In this document: positions 14,663 through 24,005 of the stretch, in pieces | Position numbering within the stretch: the first letter of the stretch is position 1 | Layout: each line of letters starts with the position of its first letter | Notes under the pieces: model-generated | Database searches by the model: none | What the model saw: only the letters and a program-made list of their open reading frames with translations | Told to the model about the DNA's origin: nothing | Assembly (NCBI GenBank): GCA_002841865.1 | Contig: PHBD01000030.1 | Location: 1-36,066, forward strand | Direction of reading: 5' to 3' | DNA length: 36,066 bases | DNA from: Deltaproteobacteria bacterium HGW-Deltaproteobacteria-19 | Lineage (GTDB): Bacteria; Desulfobacterota; Syntrophia; Syntrophales; PHBD01 | Made by a program: the position numbers and the translations under genes

Positions 14663-15898
14663 ATGATGGAACGGGTCGTCGTCACCGGGCTGGGAACCCT
14701 CAACGCAACCGCCAAGAGCGCCCCTGGCTTCGCGCAGGCCCTGCGGGAGGGCCGCTGCGGGATCGGGCCGTTTTCGGTCTTCGATCCCTCGACGTTCCGG
14801 ACGCAGATCGCCGCGGAAGTGAAGGATTTCAATCCCCGCGACCACATCCCCCGGCCGTACCCGATCAAGCGCATGTCCCGGGCGGACCTTCTCGGGTTCG
14901 CCGCCACCCTGGAGGCCCTGCAGGACGCCGGGCTGGCCCCCTTTCCGCCGGAGCTGGCGGAGGAGACGGGCGTCGTCATCGGCGGAGGCGGGGGGGGACT
15001 CCTGGAAGGGGAGCGGTTCTACGGGGAGTACCTGCGTACCGAAGGCCGGCTGGCCCGCTTCTCCGCCCTGTCGGCGGTCTACTGCGCTTCCTCGGCGGAC
15101 CGGATCGCAGCCCTCCTGGGGCTCTGGGGACCCAAGACCACCTTCATGACGGCCTGCTCTTCCGGGGCCACGGCGATCGGCTACGCCCGGGACCTGATCC
15201 GGGGGGGGACGGCGCCCGTCGTCATCGCCGGCGGGACCGAGCCGCTCTGCCGCATCACCTACGCAGCCTTCAACGCCCTCCAGGCGGTGGACCTGGAGCC
15301 CTGCAAGCCCTTCGCCGGGAACCGGGCCGGCCTGTCCCTGGGGGAGGCGGCGGGGATCCTGGTCCTCGAGTCCCTCCGCCACGCCCGGGCCCGGGGGGCG
15401 CGGATCTATGCCGAGGTGCTGGGCTACGGCGTCACCTGCGACTCGCACCACATGACGGCCCCCGACCCGGAGGCCTCCGGGGCGGTCCGGTCGATGCGGG
15501 AGGCCCTGCGCGACGCCGGCGTTTCCGCGGAGCGGGTCGATTACGTCAACGCCCACGGCACCGCCACGCCGGCCAACGATGCCATGGAGAGCCGGGCCAT
15601 CCGGCACGTCTTCGGAGACCGGGCCGGGCGGATTCCCGTCAGCTCCACGAAGTCCATGACGGGCCACACCCTGGGCGCCTCCGGGGCCCTCGAAGCGGTC
15701 GCGTCCGTCCTGGCGATCCGCCACCGCTTCATCCCGCCGACGATCCACTGCACCGTGCCGGATCCCGAGTGCGACCTCGACTATGTCACCGAGGGGGCGC
15801 GGGAAGCGGACCTTTCGGTGATCCTGTCCAATTCCTTCGCCTTCGGGGGGAACAACACCTCGCTCGTCATCGGACGGTTCGATGGAGGGAAGGGGTAG
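14663..15898 (+). CDS. Beta-ketoacyl synthase (FabF/KS-alpha type), catalytically intact
   Basis: This 411-residue protein is a condensing enzyme that should extend an acyl chain with a malonyl-thioester. The thiolase-fold active site is complete: nucleophile Cys165 in MTACSSGATAIG, His298 in VNAHGTATP and His335 in KSMTGHTLGASG. Early (VVVTGLGTL) and late (NSFAFGGNNTSLV) family signatures are present. It begins directly at the murI stop, as ATGATG, so 14666 is the alternative start. The following gene encodes a dead homologue, which makes the pair look like a KS-alpha/chain-length-factor heterodimer rather than housekeeping FabF. No acyl carrier protein gene is in the window, so the carrier must be encoded elsewhere or the substrates are CoA esters. 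Confidence 0.88.
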   Translation: MMERVVVTGLGTLNATAKSAPGFAQALREGRCGIGPFSVFDPSTFRTQIAAEVKDFNPRDHIPRPYPIKRMSRADLLGFAATLEALQDAGLAPFPPELAEETGVVIGGGGGGLLEGERFYGEYLRTEGRLARFSALSAVYCASSADRIAALLGLWGPKTTFMTACSSGATAIGYARDLIRGGTAPVVIAGGTEPLCRITYAAFNALQAVDLEPCKPFAGNRAGLSLGEAAGILVLESLRHARARGARIYAEVLGYGVTCDSHHMTAPDPEASGAVRSMREALRDAGVSAERVDYVNAHGTATPANDAMESRAIRHVFGDRAGRIPVSSTKSMTGHTLGASGALEAVASVLAIRHRFIPPTIHCTVPDPECDLDYVTEGAREADLSVILSNSFAFGGNNTSLVIGRFDGGKG

Positions 15899-15899
15899 C

Positions 15900-17135
15900 A
15901 TGGACCGGCGCGTCGCGATCACCGGCATCGGTATCGTCTCTCCCCTCGGCTCCGGCCGCGAGGCCTTCGGGAAGGCCCTCCTCGCCGGACAGAGCGGGAT
16001 CGCGCCGCTTGCCGCCTTCTCCGCGGAGGCCTTCCCCTGCAGGCTGGCCGCGGAGATCCGCGATTTCCAGGCGAGGGATTTCGTCTCCATCAAAAACCTC
16101 CGGCGGATGGATCGCCTCTCCGCCGTGACGACGGCAGCGGCCCGGATGGCCCTGGACGATGCGGGTCTGGCGATCACACCGGCCAACCGGGACCGCACGG
16201 GCATGATTCTGGGAACGGCCTGGGGCGGAACCGACGTAACGGTCTCGTTTGCCCGGGTCCTCGTGACGGAGGGTCCCGGGTCCGTCAACCCGATCCTGGT
16301 GCCCAACGTGGTCATGAACGCCCCGGCGGGCCACGCGTCCATCGAGCTGGGATTCCGGGGGATCAACACGACGGTCAACCACTATTCCGTTTCGGCGGAG
16401 TCGGCCCTGGCCTACGGCGCCCGGGAGATCCGGCGGGGTGCCGCGGACGTCCTTCTTGCCGGCGGGGCCGATGTCCTGGCCCCTTTCTATTTCGAATCCC
16501 TGACGCGCTTCAAGGCCCTGTCGCCGCTCCAGGGCGGCGGCTCCGAGGGGGCGCGTCCCTTCGACCTCCGGCGGAACGGGCCGGTGGCCGGGGAGGGCTG
16601 TGGCATCCTCTGCCTGGAGCCCCTGGAGGCGGCCCGGGAGCGGGGCGCGACCGTCTATGCGGAGATCACAGGCTCCGGGATGGCATCCTCGCCGGCGCCC
16701 ATGACCGGCTGGCCGGATGGTCCGCGGGGATTCATCCTGGCGGCCCGTCGGGCGCTCAAAGCTGCCGGTTGCACTCCGGAGGAAGTCGACATTGTCTTCG
16801 CGGCCGCCAGCGGTGGCCTCCAGCCGGACCTCCTGGAGGCGGAGGGTCTGGAACGGATTTTTGGAACGGATGGTAAACGCCCGCTCGTGACGGCCCTGAA
16901 GGGCGCCCTCGGAGAGAACTTCACCTCCGGGGGGATGAGGGCGGCGGCCCTGGCCCTGGCGTTGCGGGACGGCGTCGTGCCGCCCACCCTGGGCCTGGAG
17001 GAGCCGGTCCGGCCTCTGTCGGTCGTCGTGGGGCAGTCCGTCCGGGGGGCATTCCGGCGGGGGCTCCTGAACGGGATCTCACACGGGGGGACCTACGTCT
17101 CCCTTCTGTTTTCGAGTGTCGAGGAAGAATCATGA
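15900..17135 (+). CDS. Ketosynthase-like chain-length factor (active-site residues lost)
   Basis: This 411-residue protein has the ketosynthase fold (VAITGIGIVSPLGSG at the N-terminus, SHGGTYVSLLF at the end) but lacks the catalytic triad. In ungapped alignment the nucleophile position is Ser163 (NHYSVSAES). The first histidine motif reads FAAASGGLQ, and the second reads ALKGALGENFTSGG with no His. Loss of all three residues in a protein next to an intact KS is characteristic of chain-length factors (KS-beta) that pair with KS-alpha in type II polyketide and related systems. The start at ATG 15900 follows GGAGGGAAGGGG, one nt after the previous stop. The CLF role is inferred. Confidence 0.82.
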   Translation: MDRRVAITGIGIVSPLGSGREAFGKALLAGQSGIAPLAAFSAEAFPCRLAAEIRDFQARDFVSIKNLRRMDRLSAVTTAAARMALDDAGLAITPANRDRTGMILGTAWGGTDVTVSFARVLVTEGPGSVNPILVPNVVMNAPAGHASIELGFRGINTTVNHYSVSAESALAYGAREIRRGAADVLLAGGADVLAPFYFESLTRFKALSPLQGGGSEGARPFDLRRNGPVAGEGCGILCLEPLEAARERGATVYAEITGSGMASSPAPMTGWPDGPRGFILAARRALKAAGCTPEEVDIVFAAASGGLQPDLLEAEGLERIFGTDGKRPLVTALKGALGENFTSGGMRAAALALALRDGVVPPTLGLEEPVRPLSVVVGQSVRGAFRRGLLNGISHGGTYVSLLFSSVEEES

Positions 17136-18655
17136 ACATCGGAGAATGGATTGAAAAGAGGGCCTTCACCCACCCGGACCGGGAATTCCTGAAAGACGGG
17201 GAGCGGGTCGAGAGCAACCGTGCCTTCAACGAGCGGGTCAACCGGACGGCCCGGGCGCTCCAGAACCTGGACATCGTGAAGGGCGAGCGCTTGGCCCTCC
17301 TGATGGGTAACACGAGCGAGTTCCTGGAGATCTTCTTCGCCTGCGCCAAGACGGGGGCCATCCTGGTGCCGGTGAACTACCGCCTGGCGGGGCCGGAGAT
17401 CGAATACATCCTCCGCGATTCGGCCCCCCGGGGGCTCGTCTATGCCGCCGAGTTCACCGAGAAGGCGGCGCCCCTCAAGGATTCGAACCTGGGGATCCGC
17501 CACTGGATCCGCCATGGCGGCGACTCTCTTCCCGGGGAATCGCTCCTGGCGGACCTGACGGCAACCGAGTCGGATGGCGAGCCGTCGCCGATGGAGGAAG
17601 TGACGCCGGAGGACCCCCTCTTCATCATGTACACCTCCGGGACGACGGGCGATCCGAAAGGGGCCGTCCTGACCCACGGGAACATCCTCTTCGGGGCCGT
17701 CCATTCCCTCATCGGCTACGGCGTCAACCGGACCTACCGGTCCCTCGTCGTGGCGCCCCTCTTCCACATCGGCGCCCTGGCGGCGTCGGTCACGCCGGTC
17801 ATCTACGCCGGCGGGTCCGTCGTCCTGTCGGGATTCTTCAACGCCTCGGAGGTCCTCCTGACCATCGTCCGGGAGCGGATCAATTACATGTTCGCCGTCC
17901 CGGTCATGTTCCAGCTTATGTCGGACACGCCCGAGTGGGCCGGGGCGGACCTGTCCCACGTCCACTTCTTCATCTCCGGCGGTGCGCCGATCCCGCTCCC
18001 GGTCATCCGGAAGTACCAGGACGAGAAGGGAATCGGCTTCGTCCAGGGCTACGCCCTCACGGAGACGGGGCGACTCACGTCGCTGGACCTGGAGGACGCC
18101 GTCCGGAAGGCCGGGTCCGTGGGCAAGGAGGTCTTCCACGTGCGGCTCCGCATCGTCGACGACCAGGACCGGGACGTCGCCCCCGGGGAGCCCGGGGAGA
18201 TCGTCGTCCGGGGCCCCAATGTCTTCGCGGGATACTGGCGGAAGCCGAAAGAGACTGCGGAGGCCAAGAAGGGCGGCTGGTTCCGCACCGGCGACATGGG
18301 GCGGCGGGACGAGGACGGGTTTCTCTACATCATCGGCCGCAAGGTGGAGATGATCATCTCCTCCGGGGAGAACATCTACCCCGCCGAGGTGGAACGGGCG
18401 ATCCAGTCCCTTCCGGCGGTGAAGGAGGCGGCGGCCGTGGGCATGCCGGACCCGAAGCGGGGCGAGGTGGTGGCGGCCTTCGTTCTGCTCAGGGAGGGCG
18501 AGGCCGTGACGGAGGAGGAGATCCTGGCGGGGCTCCAGGGGAAGATCGCCCCCTTCAAGATGCCGAAGCGGGTCTTCTTCGTCGATTCCTTCCCCCGGAA
18601 TCCCGGCGGCAAGATCCTCAAGCGCATCCTCCAGAAGCGCCTGCGGGAGGGATGA
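17132..18655 (+). CDS. AMP-forming acyl-CoA synthetase/ligase
   Basis: The 507-residue enzyme belongs to the ANL adenylate-forming superfamily and would activate a carboxylic acid as acyl-AMP and transfer it to CoA or possibly a carrier protein. All core motifs are present: the P-loop-like MYTSGTTGDPKG near residue 166, GYALTETG near 309, GWFRTGDMGRRDEDGF near 385 and the C-terminal catalytic lysine context NPGGKILKR. The length fits medium/long-chain or aryl-CoA ligases; the substrate cannot be read from the sequence. It overlaps the preceding CLF-like gene by four nt (ATGA), and its product probably supplies or recycles the acyl substrate of the KS pair. Confidence 0.88.
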   Translation: MNIGEWIEKRAFTHPDREFLKDGERVESNRAFNERVNRTARALQNLDIVKGERLALLMGNTSEFLEIFFACAKTGAILVPVNYRLAGPEIEYILRDSAPRGLVYAAEFTEKAAPLKDSNLGIRHWIRHGGDSLPGESLLADLTATESDGEPSPMEEVTPEDPLFIMYTSGTTGDPKGAVLTHGNILFGAVHSLIGYGVNRTYRSLVVAPLFHIGALAASVTPVIYAGGSVVLSGFFNASEVLLTIVRERINYMFAVPVMFQLMSDTPEWAGADLSHVHFFISGGAPIPLPVIRKYQDEKGIGFVQGYALTETGRLTSLDLEDAVRKAGSVGKEVFHVRLRIVDDQDRDVAPGEPGEIVVRGPNVFAGYWRKPKETAEAKKGGWFRTGDMGRRDEDGFLYIIGRKVEMIISSGENIYPAEVERAIQSLPAVKEAAAVGMPDPKRGEVVAAFVLLREGEAVTEEEILAGLQGKIAPFKMPKRVFFVDSFPRNPGGKILKRILQKRLREG

Positions 18656-19797
18656 TGGAGATCCTGCCCTGGACCGGCGAGCACCGGGCCTTCCGTGAGG
18701 ACTTCCGCGGGTTCCTCGCCAGAGAGGTCTTTCCCTTCGTGGACCGGTGGGAGTCCGACGGCATCGTCCCCCGGTCAGCCTGGCGGGCCATGGGCGCGGC
18801 GGGGTTTCTCTGCACCGACGTGCCCCGGGAGTACGGCGGCCGCGGCCTCGATTTCCTATATTCCGTCATTGTCGTGGACGAGATGGCGAAGACGAACTGC
18901 TACGGCCTCTCGCCCCGGCTCCACAGCAACGTGGTCGTCCCCTACATCACATCCTTCGCCTCGGAAGAGCTCAAGCACCGCTATCTCCCCGGGTGCATCG
19001 CCGGCGAGATCGTCACCGGCATCGCCATGACGGAGCCCCACGCCGGGAGCGACGTGGCGGCCATCCGAACGAGCGCCGTGGAGGACGGCGACGTCGTGGT
19101 CCTGAACGGCCAGAAGACCTTCATCTCCAATGGAACCAACGGCGACCTCTTCGTGGTGGCCGCCAAGGACCCGGCGACGGAGGACCCCCACCGGGCCGTG
19201 GACATCTACCTGGTGGAGGGGAAGACCCCCGGGTTCGAACGGGGGCGCCGGCTGAAGAAGGCGGGCTGGCACAGCCAGGACACGACGGAGATCTTCTTCC
19301 ACGACTGCCGGGTGCCCCTGACCCACCGCCTCGGCGGGAAGGGCTCGGGATTCAAGAACCTGATGCGGCACCTCCAGCCGGAGCGCCTCGTCGTGGCCAT
19401 CGGCGCCGTCTCCGCGGCGGAGTGGGTCCTGGAGCACACGATTTCCCACGTGAAGGGGACGGACGTTTCGGGGCGGGCCCTGTCGTCGTTCCAGCACGTC
19501 CGCTTCGAGATCGCCGAGATGGCGACGGAGGTCCGGATCGGCCGGACCTTCGTGGACAAGCTCATCGCCGACCACATCGAGGGGATGAACGTCGTCCGGG
19601 AGGTCTCCATGGCCAAGTGGTGGACCACCGAGACGGCCTGGCGGATCGCCGACCGGTGCCTCCAGCTCCACGGCCGTCTGGGCCTCGACGAGAGCGGCCC
19701 CCTCGCCCGGGCCTGGCGGGACCTCCGCGTCACCCGCATCCTCGCCGGCACCAATGAAATCATGAAAGGCATCATCGCCCGGATGACGGGGGTATAA
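18652..19797 (+). CDS. Acyl-CoA dehydrogenase family flavoprotein
   Basis: The 381-residue protein has the ACAD fold with FAD-binding MTEPHAGSDVA near residue 125 and the C-terminal AGTNEIMKGIIAR. The position that carries the catalytic Glu in short- and medium-chain enzymes (YEGT) is Ala (LAGT). Long-chain and isovaleryl enzymes place the base on another helix, and a Glu is present there (VLEHT), so activity is still plausible. It would introduce an alpha-beta double bond into an acyl-CoA. ATG at 18652 overlaps the ligase stop by four nt; 18655 is an alternative. Tight coupling with the ligase suggests the two act in sequence on the same acyl chain. Confidence 0.87.
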   Translation: MMEILPWTGEHRAFREDFRGFLAREVFPFVDRWESDGIVPRSAWRAMGAAGFLCTDVPREYGGRGLDFLYSVIVVDEMAKTNCYGLSPRLHSNVVVPYITSFASEELKHRYLPGCIAGEIVTGIAMTEPHAGSDVAAIRTSAVEDGDVVVLNGQKTFISNGTNGDLFVVAAKDPATEDPHRAVDIYLVEGKTPGFERGRRLKKAGWHSQDTTEIFFHDCRVPLTHRLGGKGSGFKNLMRHLQPERLVVAIGAVSAAEWVLEHTISHVKGTDVSGRALSSFQHVRFEIAEMATEVRIGRTFVDKLIADHIEGMNVVREVSMAKWWTTETAWRIADRCLQLHGRLGLDESGPLARAWRDLRVTRILAGTNEIMKGIIARMTGV

Positions 19798-19825: not shown

Positions 19826-20935
19826 ATGAACGTCCGGATCGTAAATCTTCACCCGGGGTGCGAGAACAACGCCCTGTTTCTTTCCCGGGCCAGGCGGTAC
19901 TTCGAGCTGAATGGCCATGGGGTAGGGGGCGACGGGGAGTCGGACCTGGTGTTCGTGGGTGCTTGCGTCGTGACCGATCAGATGAGGCGGCGTTGTGAGG
20001 CGGCCGTTGTCGAGGGGATGCGCCGCCATACCCGGGCTGACTTCATCGTCTTCGGCTGCCTGGCGGCGTTTCCCGAGGACCTGCAGGCGTGCCTCGGCGG
20101 GGAGGCCGCCCGGATCCGGTTCATCCCGTACGGAGCGAGCGCCGAACTGGACGCCCTCGTCGGGGCGCGCGTTCCTTTCGAGACCGTCCACGTCTCGCGC
20201 CTGGACGGGCACCGGCCCTACCAGCCCCGCATGGGACCGGACGACCGCTACCTCCTGATCGCCCAGGGATGCGCCAACGACTGCAGCTACTGCAGCATCC
20301 GTCTGGCCAAGGGGCGGGTCCGGAGCCGGCCGGCGGAGGAGATCGAGGCGGAGGCCCGCGAGCTGTATGGCCAGGGCGTCCGGACCGTGACCCTGCTTGC
20401 GGACGACTGCGGCTCCTATGGCCTCGACCGTGACGACGACCTGCCAGGGCTGCTCGGGCGGATCTGCGAAATCGCCCCGGACCTCCGGATCAAGCTCTAC
20501 ACGGTGTTCCCGGCCCTGTTCCTGAACTATGCCGACCGGCTGGAGCCGTTTTTCGCCGCCGGGCGCATCCCCTATGTCTGCCTGCCCGCCCAGTCCGCCT
20601 CTCCGCGCATCCTGGACCTGATGAACCGCCGCTACGACCCGGGCCGCCTGGCTGAAACGGTCTTGCGGCTCCGTTCCCTCGATCCCGGCGTCTTCGTCTA
20701 TTCCCACTTCATCTTCGCGTTTCCCACGGAGACCTGGGAGGAGCTGGCAGAAAGCGTCTCCTTCGCCGGCCTGTTCGACCACTCCGTCTTCATCGGCTAC
20801 GGCGGGAACCGCCTGACCCGGGCGGCGGTTCTGGCCTCCCGGTATGACGACCGGGACCGACAGGCCAAGGCGGATTACCTGGGTCGGCTGGTGGCGGAAG
20901 GAAAGCTCGCCTCGTTCGTGGTGCCCTATGCCTGA
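19826..20935 (+). CDS. Methylthiotransferase-like radical SAM enzyme without TRAM domain (first copy)
   Basis: This 369-residue protein has the architecture of MiaB/RimO/MtaB methylthiotransferases minus the C-terminal TRAM RNA-binding domain. An N-terminal UPF0004-type domain carries the three expected cysteines (Cys12 in HPGCENN, Cys47 in VGACVVTD, Cys78 in FGCLAAF). The radical SAM motif CANDCSYC is at 149-156, followed by LLADDCGSYG and LDLMNRRYD. Known relatives insert sulfur or a methylthio group at an unactivated C-H bond of tRNA or ribosomal protein S12; loss of TRAM suggests a different, probably small or peptide, substrate. GAGGA precedes the ATG. It is a paralogue of the next gene, with which it overlaps by 8 nt. 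Confidence 0.8.
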   Translation: MNVRIVNLHPGCENNALFLSRARRYFELNGHGVGGDGESDLVFVGACVVTDQMRRRCEAAVVEGMRRHTRADFIVFGCLAAFPEDLQACLGGEAARIRFIPYGASAELDALVGARVPFETVHVSRLDGHRPYQPRMGPDDRYLLIAQGCANDCSYCSIRLAKGRVRSRPAEEIEAEARELYGQGVRTVTLLADDCGSYGLDRDDDLPGLLGRICEIAPDLRIKLYTVFPALFLNYADRLEPFFAAGRIPYVCLPAQSASPRILDLMNRRYDPGRLAETVLRLRSLDPGVFVYSHFIFAFPTETWEELAESVSFAGLFDHSVFIGYGGNRLTRAAVLASRYDDRDRQAKADYLGRLVAEGKLASFVVPYA

Positions 20936-22094
20936 TCCCGCGGCAGCCCCGAAGCCCGGCATCTTCGTCTTCAACCCGAGCAGGCGCTGCGCCCCCGGGG
21001 CATACCTCTTCACCCAGGCGGTCCGCTTCTTCCTCCTGAACGGCCACCCCCTGGTGCGGGACATCCGGGAGGCCGGGATTATCCTGGTGAACTCCTGCTG
21101 CGTCACGGAGGGAAAGATCGACACGTCCCTGGCGGCGCTGGAGACCGCCAGGGCTCAGGGGAAGGGGAAGACCGTGATTCTCCTGGGCTGTCTGGCCGGC
21201 CTGCCGGATGCCCCGTTCGACCCGGAGGGGATGCTGTGCGTCGGTCCGAAGGACCTGGACCTTCTCGACGCGCATTTTCCCCACCGGATCCCCGTCGGGG
21301 CGGCCGCGGCGAGCCGCCTGCCGCCGGAGTTCTTCCTGCCGGGCCAGCACCTCGGACCGCAGGACGCCTTCCTCTTCATCGGGCAGGGGTGCGTCAACGG
21401 ATGCTCCTACTGCAACATCCGCCGCGCGAAGGGCGGCCTGGCGAGCGTACCCGTGGAGGCGGTCCTCTCCCGGGCCCGCAGCGGGCTGGACCGCGGCGTG
21501 CGGGAATTCGCCCTGCTGGCGGACGACTGCGCCAGCTACGGCCGGGACATCGGGAGCGATCTGGCCGAACTGGTTGCCCAGCTCCTCGGGCTGGACGGCG
21601 GCCTGTCGCTCAAGCTGAGCTATGTGTTCCCGGCCTTCGTGGAGGAGCGCTTCGACGATCTGGCGCCGCTTTTCGCCACCGGGCGCATCCGCTATGCGAA
21701 CATCCCGCTCCAGTCGGGCTCGCAGCGCATCCTGGACCTGATGAACCGGCGCTATCCAGTCGGCCGGGTCGTGGAGCGCGTGCGGCGGCTCCGGGAGATC
21801 GCCCCCGGGTCGCTCCTCTGTACCCATGTCCTCATCAATTTTCCCACGGAGACCCGGGATGATTTCGAGGCGTCCCTCGCCCTGGCGGACGCCTTCCGCG
21901 ACACGTATTTTCTCCACTATTCGGACAACCGGGGGACCCCGGCGGCCCTCCTGGAGCCGAAAGTGCCGGCGGAGGAGGCGCTGTGGCGGCTGGATGCCGC
22001 TGCGGATTTCGTGAACGCCCGGGGGCGGGGGGTGGTGATCCGGGATTTCGACTGCGACCTGCCCTACAACCTCAGCCGGGATCGGGGTGCCTGA
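20928..22094 (+). CDS. Methylthiotransferase-like radical SAM enzyme without TRAM domain (second copy)
   Basis: The 388-residue product parallels the preceding protein. UPF0004-like cysteines lie at 21 (SRRCAPG), 57 (NSCCVTEG) and 88 (LGCLAG). The radical SAM motif CVNGCSYC is at 155-162, then LLADDCASYGRD, LQSGSQRILDLMNRRY and FPTETRDDF. It too ends without a TRAM domain. The similarity between the two is obvious in the middle and weak at both ends, consistent with an old tandem duplication and separate specialisation. The ATG lies inside the end of the previous gene, implying coupled translation. Each could act on a different site of one substrate, or the two could form a heterodimer; both are inference. 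Confidence 0.8.
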   Translation: MPDPAAAPKPGIFVFNPSRRCAPGAYLFTQAVRFFLLNGHPLVRDIREAGIILVNSCCVTEGKIDTSLAALETARAQGKGKTVILLGCLAGLPDAPFDPEGMLCVGPKDLDLLDAHFPHRIPVGAAAASRLPPEFFLPGQHLGPQDAFLFIGQGCVNGCSYCNIRRAKGGLASVPVEAVLSRARSGLDRGVREFALLADDCASYGRDIGSDLAELVAQLLGLDGGLSLKLSYVFPAFVEERFDDLAPLFATGRIRYANIPLQSGSQRILDLMNRRYPVGRVVERVRRLREIAPGSLLCTHVLINFPTETRDDFEASLALADAFRDTYFLHYSDNRGTPAALLEPKVPAEEALWRLDAAADFVNARGRGVVIRDFDCDLPYNLSRDRGA

Positions 22095-22095
22095 C

Positions 22096-23607
22096 ATGGC
22101 CCTGCCGCTCATCAAGGTCGTCCAGCTCACCCTCACCAACCGGTGCCAGCTCAACTGCGGGCACTGCGGGGTGGCGGAGCTCAGGAACGTCATGCCCGGC
22201 GAGCTGACCCTGGAGCAGATCGACGACGTCTTCCGGGACCTCCGGCTGGCCGGCTGCCTGGTGGTGGACCTCTTCGGCGGCGAGCCGACGCTGCGGAAGG
22301 ACCTGTTTGAGATTATCCGGCGCGGAAAGGCCTCCGGATTCATGATGTCCCTGGAGACGAACGGCTGGCTCCTGGACGGGGCCTTCGTCCGGGATCTGGA
22401 AGCGGCGGGCCTGGATCAGATCTACCTCAGCCTGGACGATTACCGCCCGGAAGAGCACGACCGGCGGAGGGGAAGGGCGGGGAGCTTCGAGCGGGCCGTC
22501 CGGGCGCTGGAGCTGGTGGCGGCGACCTCCATGATTGTTCACGTCTCCATCGTGCCGCAGACGGCCGAATTCTTCACCGGTGGCGGCATGAATCGGTTCA
22601 TGGCCTTTGTCCTGGCGAAGGGGGCTGAGAAGGTGCGGCTCCTCCTGCCCCGCTTTTCCGGCCGGTCGGCCCGCCCCGACGGGACCCCCTTTGCGGCCCG
22701 CCGGGAGCGGGATCTCTTCGCCTGCATCGCCCCGGAGTACACGCCCCATATCTACGTTCACACACCGGGAACGCCGGTGGGAGAGACGAATAAGTGCACG
22801 GCCAAGAACATCTTCTGCCACATCATGAGCAACGGCTGGATCGCCCCCTGCCCGTACCTGCCCCTCGTCTTCGGTGACGCGACGCGCGAGTCCGTGGTGG
22901 AGGTGTTCGAGCGGATGCAGTCCCATCCGCTGGTCCGGCTGGGCGGCGACACCTGCCCGATGCGGAACCCCGACTACATCGAGGAGCATATCCGTCCGAT
23001 GGGAGCGGGACGCCCCTTCTATCCCATCGCCTCGGAGAACCAGGTGGATCTCGGCGCCCCCTGCCCGCCGGACTGCCGCGGCTGCGATGCCGCCGGAAGG
23101 CCGCCACGCAGGCCCGCCGAGGCGGTGATCCGTGACCTTCAGGCCGTGGATCCGAACTACCGGAGCATCGAGTTCTACGGCGGGGATGCGCTGGTCCGGG
23201 CTGATCTGATCGGCATTCTCGGCCGGGTTCTCCCGGGCATGGATATCAGCCTTTGGACCACCGGCCGCTTCGTGCCGGAGGATCCGGGGTTCCGGGAACG
23301 GCTGCGCTCCTTTCCCGTCCGCGCAATCCGGGTGATGATGCCTCTTGACGGTGCGGGGACGCCGGGCGGCTTTGGAGACGCCCTGGGACGGATCCGGGCC
23401 GTTCAAGGGCTGGGCATCCCCGTCCATCTGTACGCGCCGGCGGACGCCCCGGCGGAGGCGCACCGTATCATGGCCGAAAACGCGGCCCGACTGGGGGTGG
23501 AGCGGATCTATCTCTTCCTCCGGGATTCGGCAATGCCCCTGCCGAACGCGGTCGCCTGTTTCGGCAAGGCCCTCGGCCGGGCTTCACTGGCCTGGGCCCG
23601 ACCTTGA
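22096..23607 (+). CDS. Radical SAM/SPASM protein with a second radical-SAM-like C-terminal half
   Basis: The 503-residue protein starts with a standard radical SAM domain: CQLNCGHC at residues 17-24, DLFGGEPTLRKDL and LETNGW. A SPASM/twitch-like cysteine set follows (Cys234, Cys241, Cys252 in IAPCPYL, and a further CP near 289). The remaining 180 residues are unusual. A second CX3CX2C (Cys323, Cys327, Cys330 in CPPDCRGC) is followed by FYGGDALVRADL (compare GGEP), then LWTTGRF and RVMMPLDG in the order of barrel strands. This looks like a degenerate duplicate radical SAM domain. SPASM proteins commonly modify peptides or enzymes. It starts one nt after the previous stop. Confidence 0.82.
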   Translation: MALPLIKVVQLTLTNRCQLNCGHCGVAELRNVMPGELTLEQIDDVFRDLRLAGCLVVDLFGGEPTLRKDLFEIIRRGKASGFMMSLETNGWLLDGAFVRDLEAAGLDQIYLSLDDYRPEEHDRRRGRAGSFERAVRALELVAATSMIVHVSIVPQTAEFFTGGGMNRFMAFVLAKGAEKVRLLLPRFSGRSARPDGTPFAARRERDLFACIAPEYTPHIYVHTPGTPVGETNKCTAKNIFCHIMSNGWIAPCPYLPLVFGDATRESVVEVFERMQSHPLVRLGGDTCPMRNPDYIEEHIRPMGAGRPFYPIASENQVDLGAPCPPDCRGCDAAGRPPRRPAEAVIRDLQAVDPNYRSIEFYGGDALVRADLIGILGRVLPGMDISLWTTGRFVPEDPGFRERLRSFPVRAIRVMMPLDGAGTPGGFGDALGRIRAVQGLGIPVHLYAPADAPAEAHRIMAENAARLGVERIYLFLRDSAMPLPNAVACFGKALGRASLAWARP

Positions 23608-23828: not shown

Positions 23829-24005
23829 ATGCAGGAAATCTTGACGGCCGTCACCTACCTGGTGGTCTGGCTCCTCTGCGAGCGGGTCATCGGGATCGAG
23901 AGCGGACTGGTGAATCTGATTGTCTCGCTGGGGGCGGCCGTGGGCGTTTACGTCTTCATCGCCGTCCGGGACCACCGCAAGAAGAAAGAAAGCGGAGAGC
24001 CCTAG
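23829..24005 (+). CDS. Small membrane protein, 58 aa, unknown function
   Basis: ATG 23829 has GGGAGGGAAGG upstream and opens a 58-residue frame (MQEILTAVTYLVVWLLCERV and on). It encodes two hydrophobic segments (about residues 4-20 and 26-46) separated by a short IGIESG turn, and a strongly basic tail (RDHRKKKESGE). This predicts a two-helix inner-membrane hairpin with the basic end in the cytoplasm. It follows the radical SAM genes on the same strand and may be the last gene of that operon. No function is recognised. Confidence 0.6.
   Translation: MQEILTAVTYLVVWLLCERVIGIESGLVNLIVSLGAAVGVYVFIAVRDHRKKKESGEP

Follow-up and report, generated by a model that had tools for sequence, protein, structure and literature searches.

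A contig of 36,066 nucleotides (nt) from Deltaproteobacteria bacterium HGW-Deltaproteobacteria-19 (PHBD01000030.1, analysed whole and called the window below; contig C78 of the window genome, G000) carries three overlapping plus-strand genes. Two encode radical S-adenosylmethionine (SAM) enzymes that resemble methylthiotransferases (MTTases) but end before the TRAM domain, here named MTT1 and MTT2, and the third encodes another radical SAM enzyme (Table 1). The overlaps of MTT1 with MTT2 and of MTT2 with the third gene are both 8 nt. The longest mechanical open reading frame (ORF) of MTT2 begins at 20844 (416 aa), and the ATG at 20928 matches the 388-aa orthologue of G001, a genome of the same genus. 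Ratios of nonsynonymous to synonymous substitution (dN/dS) against the G001 orthologues are 0.157 for MTT1, 0.218 for MTT2, and 0.153 for the third gene; the low values for MTT1 and MTT2 indicate that both are real genes under purifying selection.

A first-pass annotation had described the pair as two diverged copies overlapping by 8 nt beside a SPASM enzyme. Overlap and divergence hold, and a radical SAM gene does adjoin, but its SPASM match is sub-threshold (15.1 bits, cut-off 21.5), and we refer to it as SPASM-like. It has a second CX3CX2C motif, which is kept in seven of nine compared proteins and missing from the two short ones, and the enzyme may thus have two radical SAM-type cluster sites. 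Homologues with 53.7–57.6% identity lie next to MTT genes at loci L042, L064, L067, and L072. On the 3' side of the trio, a 58-aa protein (window 23829-24005) is hydrophobic by eye and 94.8% identical in G001, and it has no NCBIfam match.

Table 1. Features of the trio and of the genes upstream (window coordinates).
Feature	Position	Strand	Basis or conservation
MTT1 (369 aa), methylthiotransferase-like radical SAM enzyme without TRAM	19826..20935	+	ORF, Pfam, TIGR00089, 7-row subclade
MTT2, second TRAM-less methylthiotransferase-like enzyme, 388 aa	20928..22094	+	ORF, Pfam, TIGR00089, 5-row subclade
Third trio gene (506 aa), radical SAM enzyme, SPASM match weak, second CX3CX2C present	22087..23607	+
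MTT1 Cys12 codon, first N-domain cluster cysteine	19859..19861	+	invariant in 37/37 TRAM-less proteins
MTT1 Cys47 codon	19964..19966	+	invariant in 37/37 TRAM-less proteins
MTT1 Cys78 codon	20057..20059	+	invariant in 37/37 TRAM-less proteins
MTT1 CX3CX2C radical SAM motif, residues 149-156	20270..20293	+
MTT1 LADDCGSYG motif, residues 191-199	20396..20422	+	Asp194 and Gly199 37/37; Cys195 29/37
MTT2 CX3CX2C radical SAM motif, residues 155-162	21390..21413	+
MTT2 LADDCASYG motif, residues 197-205	21516..21542	+
Second CX3CX2C of third gene, residues 326-333	23062..23085	+	in 7/9 compared proteins
KAS1, KAS2, acyl-CoA ligase, acyl-CoA dehydrogenase	14663-19797	same strand as trio

Domain architecture and cluster cysteines

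Both MTT1 and MTT2 match Radical_SAM in Pfam, and MTT2 also passes the UPF0004 cut-off of 27 bits (27.9 bits), which MTT1 does not reach (19.4 bits). Both possess the three N-domain cysteines and the CX3CX2C motif expected of MTTases. The N-domain cysteines are spaced CX34CX30C and CX35CX30C, compared with CX35-36CX32-33C given in PMC5352715. The six cluster cysteines of MTT1 (12, 47, 78, 149, 153, and 156) are invariant in all 37 proteins of the TRAM-less clade described below. A profile of this family matches the solved structures of RimO (4JC0, E 9e-49) and MiaB (7MJZ, E 1.2e-48).

The two proteins are short at the C-terminus. Matches to TIGR00089 (429 profile positions) stop at position 361 for MTT1 and 354 for MTT2, and the scores (149.2 and 178.2 bits) stay under the subfamily cut-off of 251 bits. 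Only 66 (MTT1) and 79 (MTT2) residues follow the FPTET motif, compared with 126–160 in the 39 of 52 canonical proteins of our tree that have the motif, the other 13 being unmeasurable in this way. Pfam finds nothing past residue 319 in either protein, hence no TRAM match. As a positive control, Pfam applied to the canonical set of the same genome detected TRAM in MiaB, TRAM_2 in RimO, and nothing in MtaB. Because Pfam misses TRAM in a canonical MtaB, the missing hit alone is weak, and the claim rests on length and profile coverage. These bear out the first-pass description of proteins of 369 and 388 residues that keep three UPF0004-type cysteines and CX3CX2C and end short of TRAM.

Among known enzymes, the closest likeness is to RimO (TIGR01125), which has the same N-terminal three-cysteine auxiliary cluster domain and CX3CX2C core and is the nearest clade (98/93 in a tree with the TRAM region trimmed off). 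Unlike RimO, the window proteins have no TRAM domain, fall outside the RimO clade, and score 115 and 138 bits against a model cut-off of 357. The two-domain core and the cysteines are also common to MiaB and MtaB, the tRNA A37 methylthiotransferases, from which the window proteins differ in lacking TRAM, in having canonical copies alongside, and in the LADDC[GA]SYG motif. At this motif's position, MiaB proteins have LGQNVNSYG-like, RimO proteins AQDTTxYG-like, and MtaB TGIHLGAYG-like sequences. Asp194 of the motif is kept in 37/37 TRAM-less proteins, and 29/37 have the additional Cys195.

A probable sister clade of RimO and its distribution

We built a first tree from 91 proteins (28 MiaB, 14 RimO, 10 MtaB, and 39 TRAM-less). 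Repeats (L008, L009, L099, L115) and fragments (L033, L087) had been removed, and L085, L093, and L098 gave no row. Canonical rows were labelled by motif and BLAST, with NCBIfam applied to the three of the window genome only; the TRAM-less label was assigned first by motif, length, and exclusion. MTL1 of epsilonproteobacteria is the fifth MTTase family; neither its sequences nor those of e-MtaB were taken into the trees. Thirty-seven of the 39 TRAM-less rows fell into one clade (100/99) with RimO adjoining (98/95). The two outliers had very long branches (L070 8558-11059, an 833-aa frame cut at 520 residues, and L083 5185-6321), and they were removed before the second tree and the cysteine count. 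In that second, TRAM-trimmed tree, a single branch separated each of the four groups from the rest in all of the 200 bootstrap trees (support 100/99 for TRAM-less, 100/99 for RimO, 100/96 for MiaB, and 100/100 for MtaB), and the window proteins were outside all three canonical clades.

The first-pass annotation had proposed that this tandem pair lost TRAM. The absence stands, yet it is not local to the pair: it is a feature of the whole sampled clade beside RimO, for which a single loss in the clade ancestor would be the simplest account. The tail beyond FPxE has 60–102 residues in 31 of the 37 clade rows, is longer in five (L071 148, L073 216, L083 350, L077 377, and L079 420 residues), and is unmeasurable in L075. 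Pfam found no TRAM in the 10 of 37 rows checked, which were the five long-tailed ones, L075, and four others. MTT1 belongs to a 7-row subclade (98/91; named members L042, L044, L064, L066, L067, and L072) and MTT2 to a separate 5-row subclade (100/99), so the pair reflects an old rather than a recent duplication. A further well-supported subgroup, L059-L063 (in G187, G256, G334, G357, and G284), comprises TRAM-less MTTases of 401–432 aa with ADDTGAYG in place of ADDCGSYG.

The same genome also encodes full-length MiaB (541.5 bits), RimO (453.3 bits), and MtaB (422.5 bits), each over its NCBIfam equivalog cut-off. With these present, neither tRNA nor S12 needs to be the target of the window proteins. 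The first-pass annotation had named two outcomes that would refute it, placement of either protein inside a canonical clade and a lack of canonical copies elsewhere in the genome, and neither was observed.

TRAM-less enzymes of this kind are patchily distributed. At E<=1e-36, 6 of the 155 class genomes searched have an MTT2-type match, which is of MTT1/MTT2 type in four and a more distant TRAM-less protein in two; at E<=1e-38, 9 of 395 genomes drawn from the phylum have a match. A contig scan with MTT2 as the sole query gave no match; with an 8-row alignment it returned 35 loci, including ones from Geobacteraceae, Desulfobacteraceae, Chitinivibrionales, Margulisbacteria, and Omnitrophota, of which 15 (L084-L098) are canonical-type or fragmentary relatives.

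More distant TRAM-less MTTases are encoded at L074 9905-11149 (Geobacter), L075 9944-11164 (Desulfosarcina), and L076 9965-11158 (Geomonas). The neighbours of the L076 gene encode a DUF3641 radical SAM protein (the ArsS family), a UbiE/ArsM-like methyltransferase, MoeA, a molybdate transporter, and a B12-radical SAM enzyme, a setting in which a methylthio step in an arsenic- or metal-related pathway is possible. MTTase-like cores with 350–420 residues beyond FPxE are found at L077 5192-7237, L079 9932-12133, and L083 9944-11923. The extra part is a second radical SAM domain in L077, and in L079 and L083 it resembles the B12-binding radical SAM protein of L065.

A gene cluster with two predicted ABBA-fold families

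The MTT1/MTT2 lineage is linked at genome scale to a protein family that we call fam3, the first of two families with a predicted ABBA fold in the cluster. Ten of the 12 genomes that carry a gene of the 17-row MTT1/MTT2 subclade possess fam3, either on the MTT contig (L042, L064, L065, L066, L067, L069, and L072) or elsewhere in the genome (G000, G001, and the Chitinivibrionales genome of L068). None of the 15 tested genomes with other TRAM-less members does (16 handles, two of which denote one genome). The difference, 10/12 against 0/15, has a Fisher p of 7.8e-6 when relatedness is ignored. Searched at contig level only, further loci with other TRAM-less members (L077, L079, and those in G048, G284, and G357) had no fam3 match on their contigs.

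The fullest arrangement is in G091 (L042), with gene contents here and below called by homology over all frames. The order is the end of a giant protein, famX (the second ABBA-fold family, fused to DUF3467), rSAM2 (a second, HxsC-like radical SAM enzyme), fam3, MTT1, MTT2, the SPASM-like gene, a kinase-like gene on the opposite strand, and an O-methyltransferase gene, followed by genes for a small DUF3467 protein, GAF-HlyD, M50-HlyD, accessory SecA, and HlyD. The order is different at L067 and L072, which share both MTTs, the SPASM-like gene, rSAM2, fam3, and the O-methyltransferase gene with G091. Of the two MTTs, only MTT1 is present at L064 (Geobacter), and the gene sets of L066 (Margulisbacteria) and L069 are smaller. 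At L071 (Desulfobacterales), the reading frame of an MTT from the MTT1/MTT2 subclade continues into the beginning of a SPASM-type protein before the contig ends. This added part, in which Pfam finds a second radical SAM domain, shares 57% identity over 72 residues with the third window gene; the fusion is independent support for an MTT and a SPASM-like enzyme acting together.

The window genome has the cluster too, on another contig. C68 (L105, 9,677 bases) carries the giant protein's end, famX, rSAM2, fam3, a kinase-like match split over two frames, the O-methyltransferase, and the small DUF3467 protein, and it ends inside GAF-HlyD. Contig C2 of G001 (L106, L107) has the same order and continues to M50-HlyD, SecA, and HlyD. 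Relative to G091, both contigs lack the trio, and nothing else, between fam3 and the kinase-like gene; in both genomes the trio lies elsewhere, in the internal order of G091. The trio either left the cluster as a unit in the window genus or entered it in G091.

Of the 395 phylum and 155 class genomes, 4 and 8, respectively, have fam3, whose range includes Geobacter, a marine Margulisbacterium, and a Chitinivibrionales genome. Six of the phylum and class genomes have fam3 and no trio (G022, G120, G121, G140, G277, and G526). Five of these loci were examined (that of G121 aside), and all five combine rSAM2, fam3, and the O-methyltransferase, with rSAM2 cut by a contig end in one. The six genomes have 17 MTTase matches, two to three each, in frames of 420–494 codons except for one of 350 beside a contig end; by length and number we take them for canonical enzymes. 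The occurrence of the fam3 core on its own makes the trio look like an optional addition to a core pathway.

fam3 (286–296 aa) has no Pfam or NCBIfam match, and in famX the only named part is the DUF3467-type N-terminus, the catalytic region being unassigned in both databases. An AlphaFold2 model of fam3 built from 14 sequences (mean predicted local distance difference test score, pLDDT, 81.9) was searched against the PDB with Foldseek, and in the best 48 of 50 listed rows the match is an aromatic or peptide prenyltransferase of the ABBA type (best E 3.8e-6); VIA-align gave Z up to 13.8 with a root-mean-square deviation (rmsd) of 4.0 over 246 residues. For the famX model (pLDDT 87.5), all 50 listed rows are ABBA prenyltransferases, the best to dimethylallyltryptophan synthase (E 6.5e-8), and VIA-align to CymD gave Z 15.8 and an rmsd of 3.7 over 250 residues. 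Sequence identity in the matches listed for both families is 7–17%. An hhalign comparison of fam3 with famX found no match (probability 0.2%), and PDB sequence searches listed no prenyltransferase for either family (best E 0.31 and 0.0054, the latter to a viral protein with no stretch passing alone). With sequence searches blank and structures matched, the ABBA fold is seen through structure only. Both families are thus predicted, from models, to have the ABBA (PT-barrel) fold, and the Lys, Arg, and Tyr residues invariant in both would be compatible with diphosphate binding. They share this predicted fold with the cyanobactin and indole prenyltransferases KgpF, LimF, AmbP1, PagF, and CymD, from which they differ in their 7–17% identity, in having no family name, and in the adjoining radical SAM genes. 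Larger proteins at L067 11231-14557 (1108 aa) and L072 14900-17974 (1024 aa) have a famX prenyltransferase-like C-terminus, and the latter has a U32-peptidase-like match near its N-terminus (20.4 bits, cut-off 22.4).

The best NCBIfam match of rSAM2 is to HxsC-type peptide maturases and the best rows of the O-methyltransferase are FlxJ and BchU, all far under cut-off; the M50 fusion protein scores 156 bits against a daptide intramembrane protease model (cut-off 300) and 16.3 bits against PqqD (cut-off 23.4). The giant protein corresponds in G001 to an ORF of 10,794 codons (C2:106547-138931, from L108 547 to L106 12932) with a LEPR-XLL N-terminus over cut-off and calcium-binding-type (RTX) repeats. 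The adjoining genes for accessory SecA, the M50-HlyD fusion, GAF-HlyD, and HlyD look like a dedicated export system for giant proteins. In a comparison of 1270 short ORFs from 18 loci, only the small DUF3467 protein recurs across genera, besides apparent reading-frame shadows and two weak pairs.

Candidate function of the TRAM-less enzymes

PMC5352715 counts five MTTase families, and PMC10702137 gives tRNA and S12 as the sole known MTTase substrates. Among the papers listed in our literature searches, whose coverage leaves out most subscription journals, we found no description of TRAM-less MTTases or of this gene cluster. We consider it probable, if not assured, that MTT1 and MTT2 are dedicated tailoring MTTases that act on a prenylated, O-methylated product and on neither tRNA nor S12. 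We read them so because of the genome-scale link to the ABBA prenyltransferase cluster. The first-pass annotation had likewise proposed non-tRNA substrates, and this gains support from the cluster link, though as a deduction; its own reason, two copies beside a SPASM enzyme, is weak by itself.

MTT1, MTT2, and the SPASM-like radical SAM enzyme would form a three-gene tailoring cassette added onto a core pathway, also found without it, of the HxsC-like radical SAM enzyme, an ABBA prenyltransferase, an O-methyltransferase, and often famX with its DUF3467-type N-terminus. TRAM would be dispensable for enzymes whose target is neither tRNA nor S12. By analogy with RimO and MiaB, the three N-domain cysteines would hold an auxiliary [4Fe-4S] cluster as sulfur carrier. 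One SAM would methylate a cluster sulfur; a second would give rise to a 5'-deoxyadenosyl radical that abstracts hydrogen from a substrate carbon, leaving C-SCH3. The ABBA-fold proteins would transfer prenyl groups to the same product, and each MTT may act at a different position of it.

Several observations weigh against this reading. The genomes of L070 and L071 (completeness not told), two of the 12 with the subclade, yielded no fam3. The link consists of gene neighbourhood, one fusion, and presence only, and in the window the trio is not near a prenyltransferase gene and follows genes for β-ketoacyl synthases (KAS), a ligase, and an acyl-CoA dehydrogenase after a gap of 28 nt. A shared ABBA fold is no proof of prenyl transfer, fold not being activity, and the Foldseek TM-scores are moderate (0.34–0.57 over the 48 fam3 rows, by query length). 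Among the short ORFs compared, the small DUF3467 protein was the sole candidate for a precursor peptide, and placement of the clade as sister to MtaB is only just rejected against the RimO-sister position (p 0.048, approximately unbiased test).

The 28-nt gap and common strand make co-transcription with the upstream KAS1-KAS2-ligase-dehydrogenase operon plausible, and the trio might instead modify a fatty-acid- or polyketide-type product. G001 has the same KAS-to-trio order with a gap of 70 nt, and KAS2, which we take to resemble chain-length factors, has Ser at the FabF active-site Cys position in an alignment by eye. KAS2 homologues (E<=1e-80) are nevertheless present in 65 of 155 class genomes, against 4 of 155 for MTT1/MTT2-type genes (E<=1e-36), and G091 carries its KAS2 homologue (contig C6) and the trio (C3) on different contigs. 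Among 26 compared loci, KAS2 was seen only in the window and its G001 counterpart. We rejected the KAS, ligase, and dehydrogenase genes as the principal partner because KAS2 is common in the class and unlinked in the other compared loci, and we regard this explanation as improbable. A role as divergent tRNA or S12 methylthiotransferases working without TRAM is more improbable still. It has family kinship in its favour, and TRAM is not the sole recognition domain, since, according to PMC10702137, what distinguishes MiaB from MtaB was mapped to the two remaining domains. The canonical MiaB, RimO, and MtaB of the genome, the patchy spread (9/395 at phylum level), and the linkage to prenyltransferases all argue against it.

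Two further explanations concern the chemistry and the substrate. The enzymes could use their auxiliary clusters for sulfur insertion without a methyl group, C-S cross-linking, or a non-sulfur radical reaction, as LipA and MoaA are non-MTTase enzymes with auxiliary clusters (PMC5352715), and Cys195 in 29/37 proteins and the ADDCGSYG motif, altered relative to MiaB and RimO, would suit such a change. The solved relatives that match beyond 1e-40 are RimO and MiaB, however, and the six cluster cysteines are kept at near-canonical spacing, which makes other chemistry unlikely. It is doubtful, if a little less so, that the whole set modifies a protein or peptide, either the giant exported LEPR-XLL/RTX-repeat protein or the small DUF3467 protein, an explanation that overlaps with the tailoring role and names its substrate. 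The giant ORF and the accessory SecA, M50/HlyD fusion, and HlyD genes share one locus, the substrate of the closest relative, RimO, is a protein, rSAM2 is nearest to peptide maturases, and four of six giant-protein ends compared (two from one genus) have a similar Trp-bearing C-terminal tail. Against a protein target, the short contigs of L066 and L069 hold genes for an MTT, a SPASM-type protein, and a prenyltransferase but none for an exporter, the giant C-terminus is different in L121 and L122, and the PqqD-like match is under cut-off.

For the tailoring role that we favour, the substrate would be a small molecule, a peptide, or the giant exported protein. RimO kinship, the HxsC-like rSAM2, the M50 protease fusion, the export genes, and the giant LEPR-XLL protein point to a protein or peptide; a small molecule is suggested by the lack of a short precursor gene, by the O-methyltransferase being nearest to FlxJ/BchU, and by the loci without an exporter. 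As a speculation that we hold to be unlikely, a ribosomally made target, for instance the giant LEPR-XLL exported protein or its DUF3467 partner, might be decorated jointly by the MTT pair, both cryptic ABBA prenyltransferases, the O-methyltransferase, and two or three radical SAM enzymes. The outcome would be a secreted protein or peptide with methylthio and prenyl groups. If true, this would be a new class of protein maturation.

fam3 and famX would add to the cryptic ABBA-fold proteins that are unnamed in Pfam and NCBIfam. If the tailoring role is correct, a TRAM-less clade tied to a prenylation pathway would give MTTases a third kind of target and bear on the open question of what determines their specificity. 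The clade would also offer candidate enzyme types for methylthio groups without assigned enzymes, such as that of methylthio-F430, which is discussed in PMC10702137.

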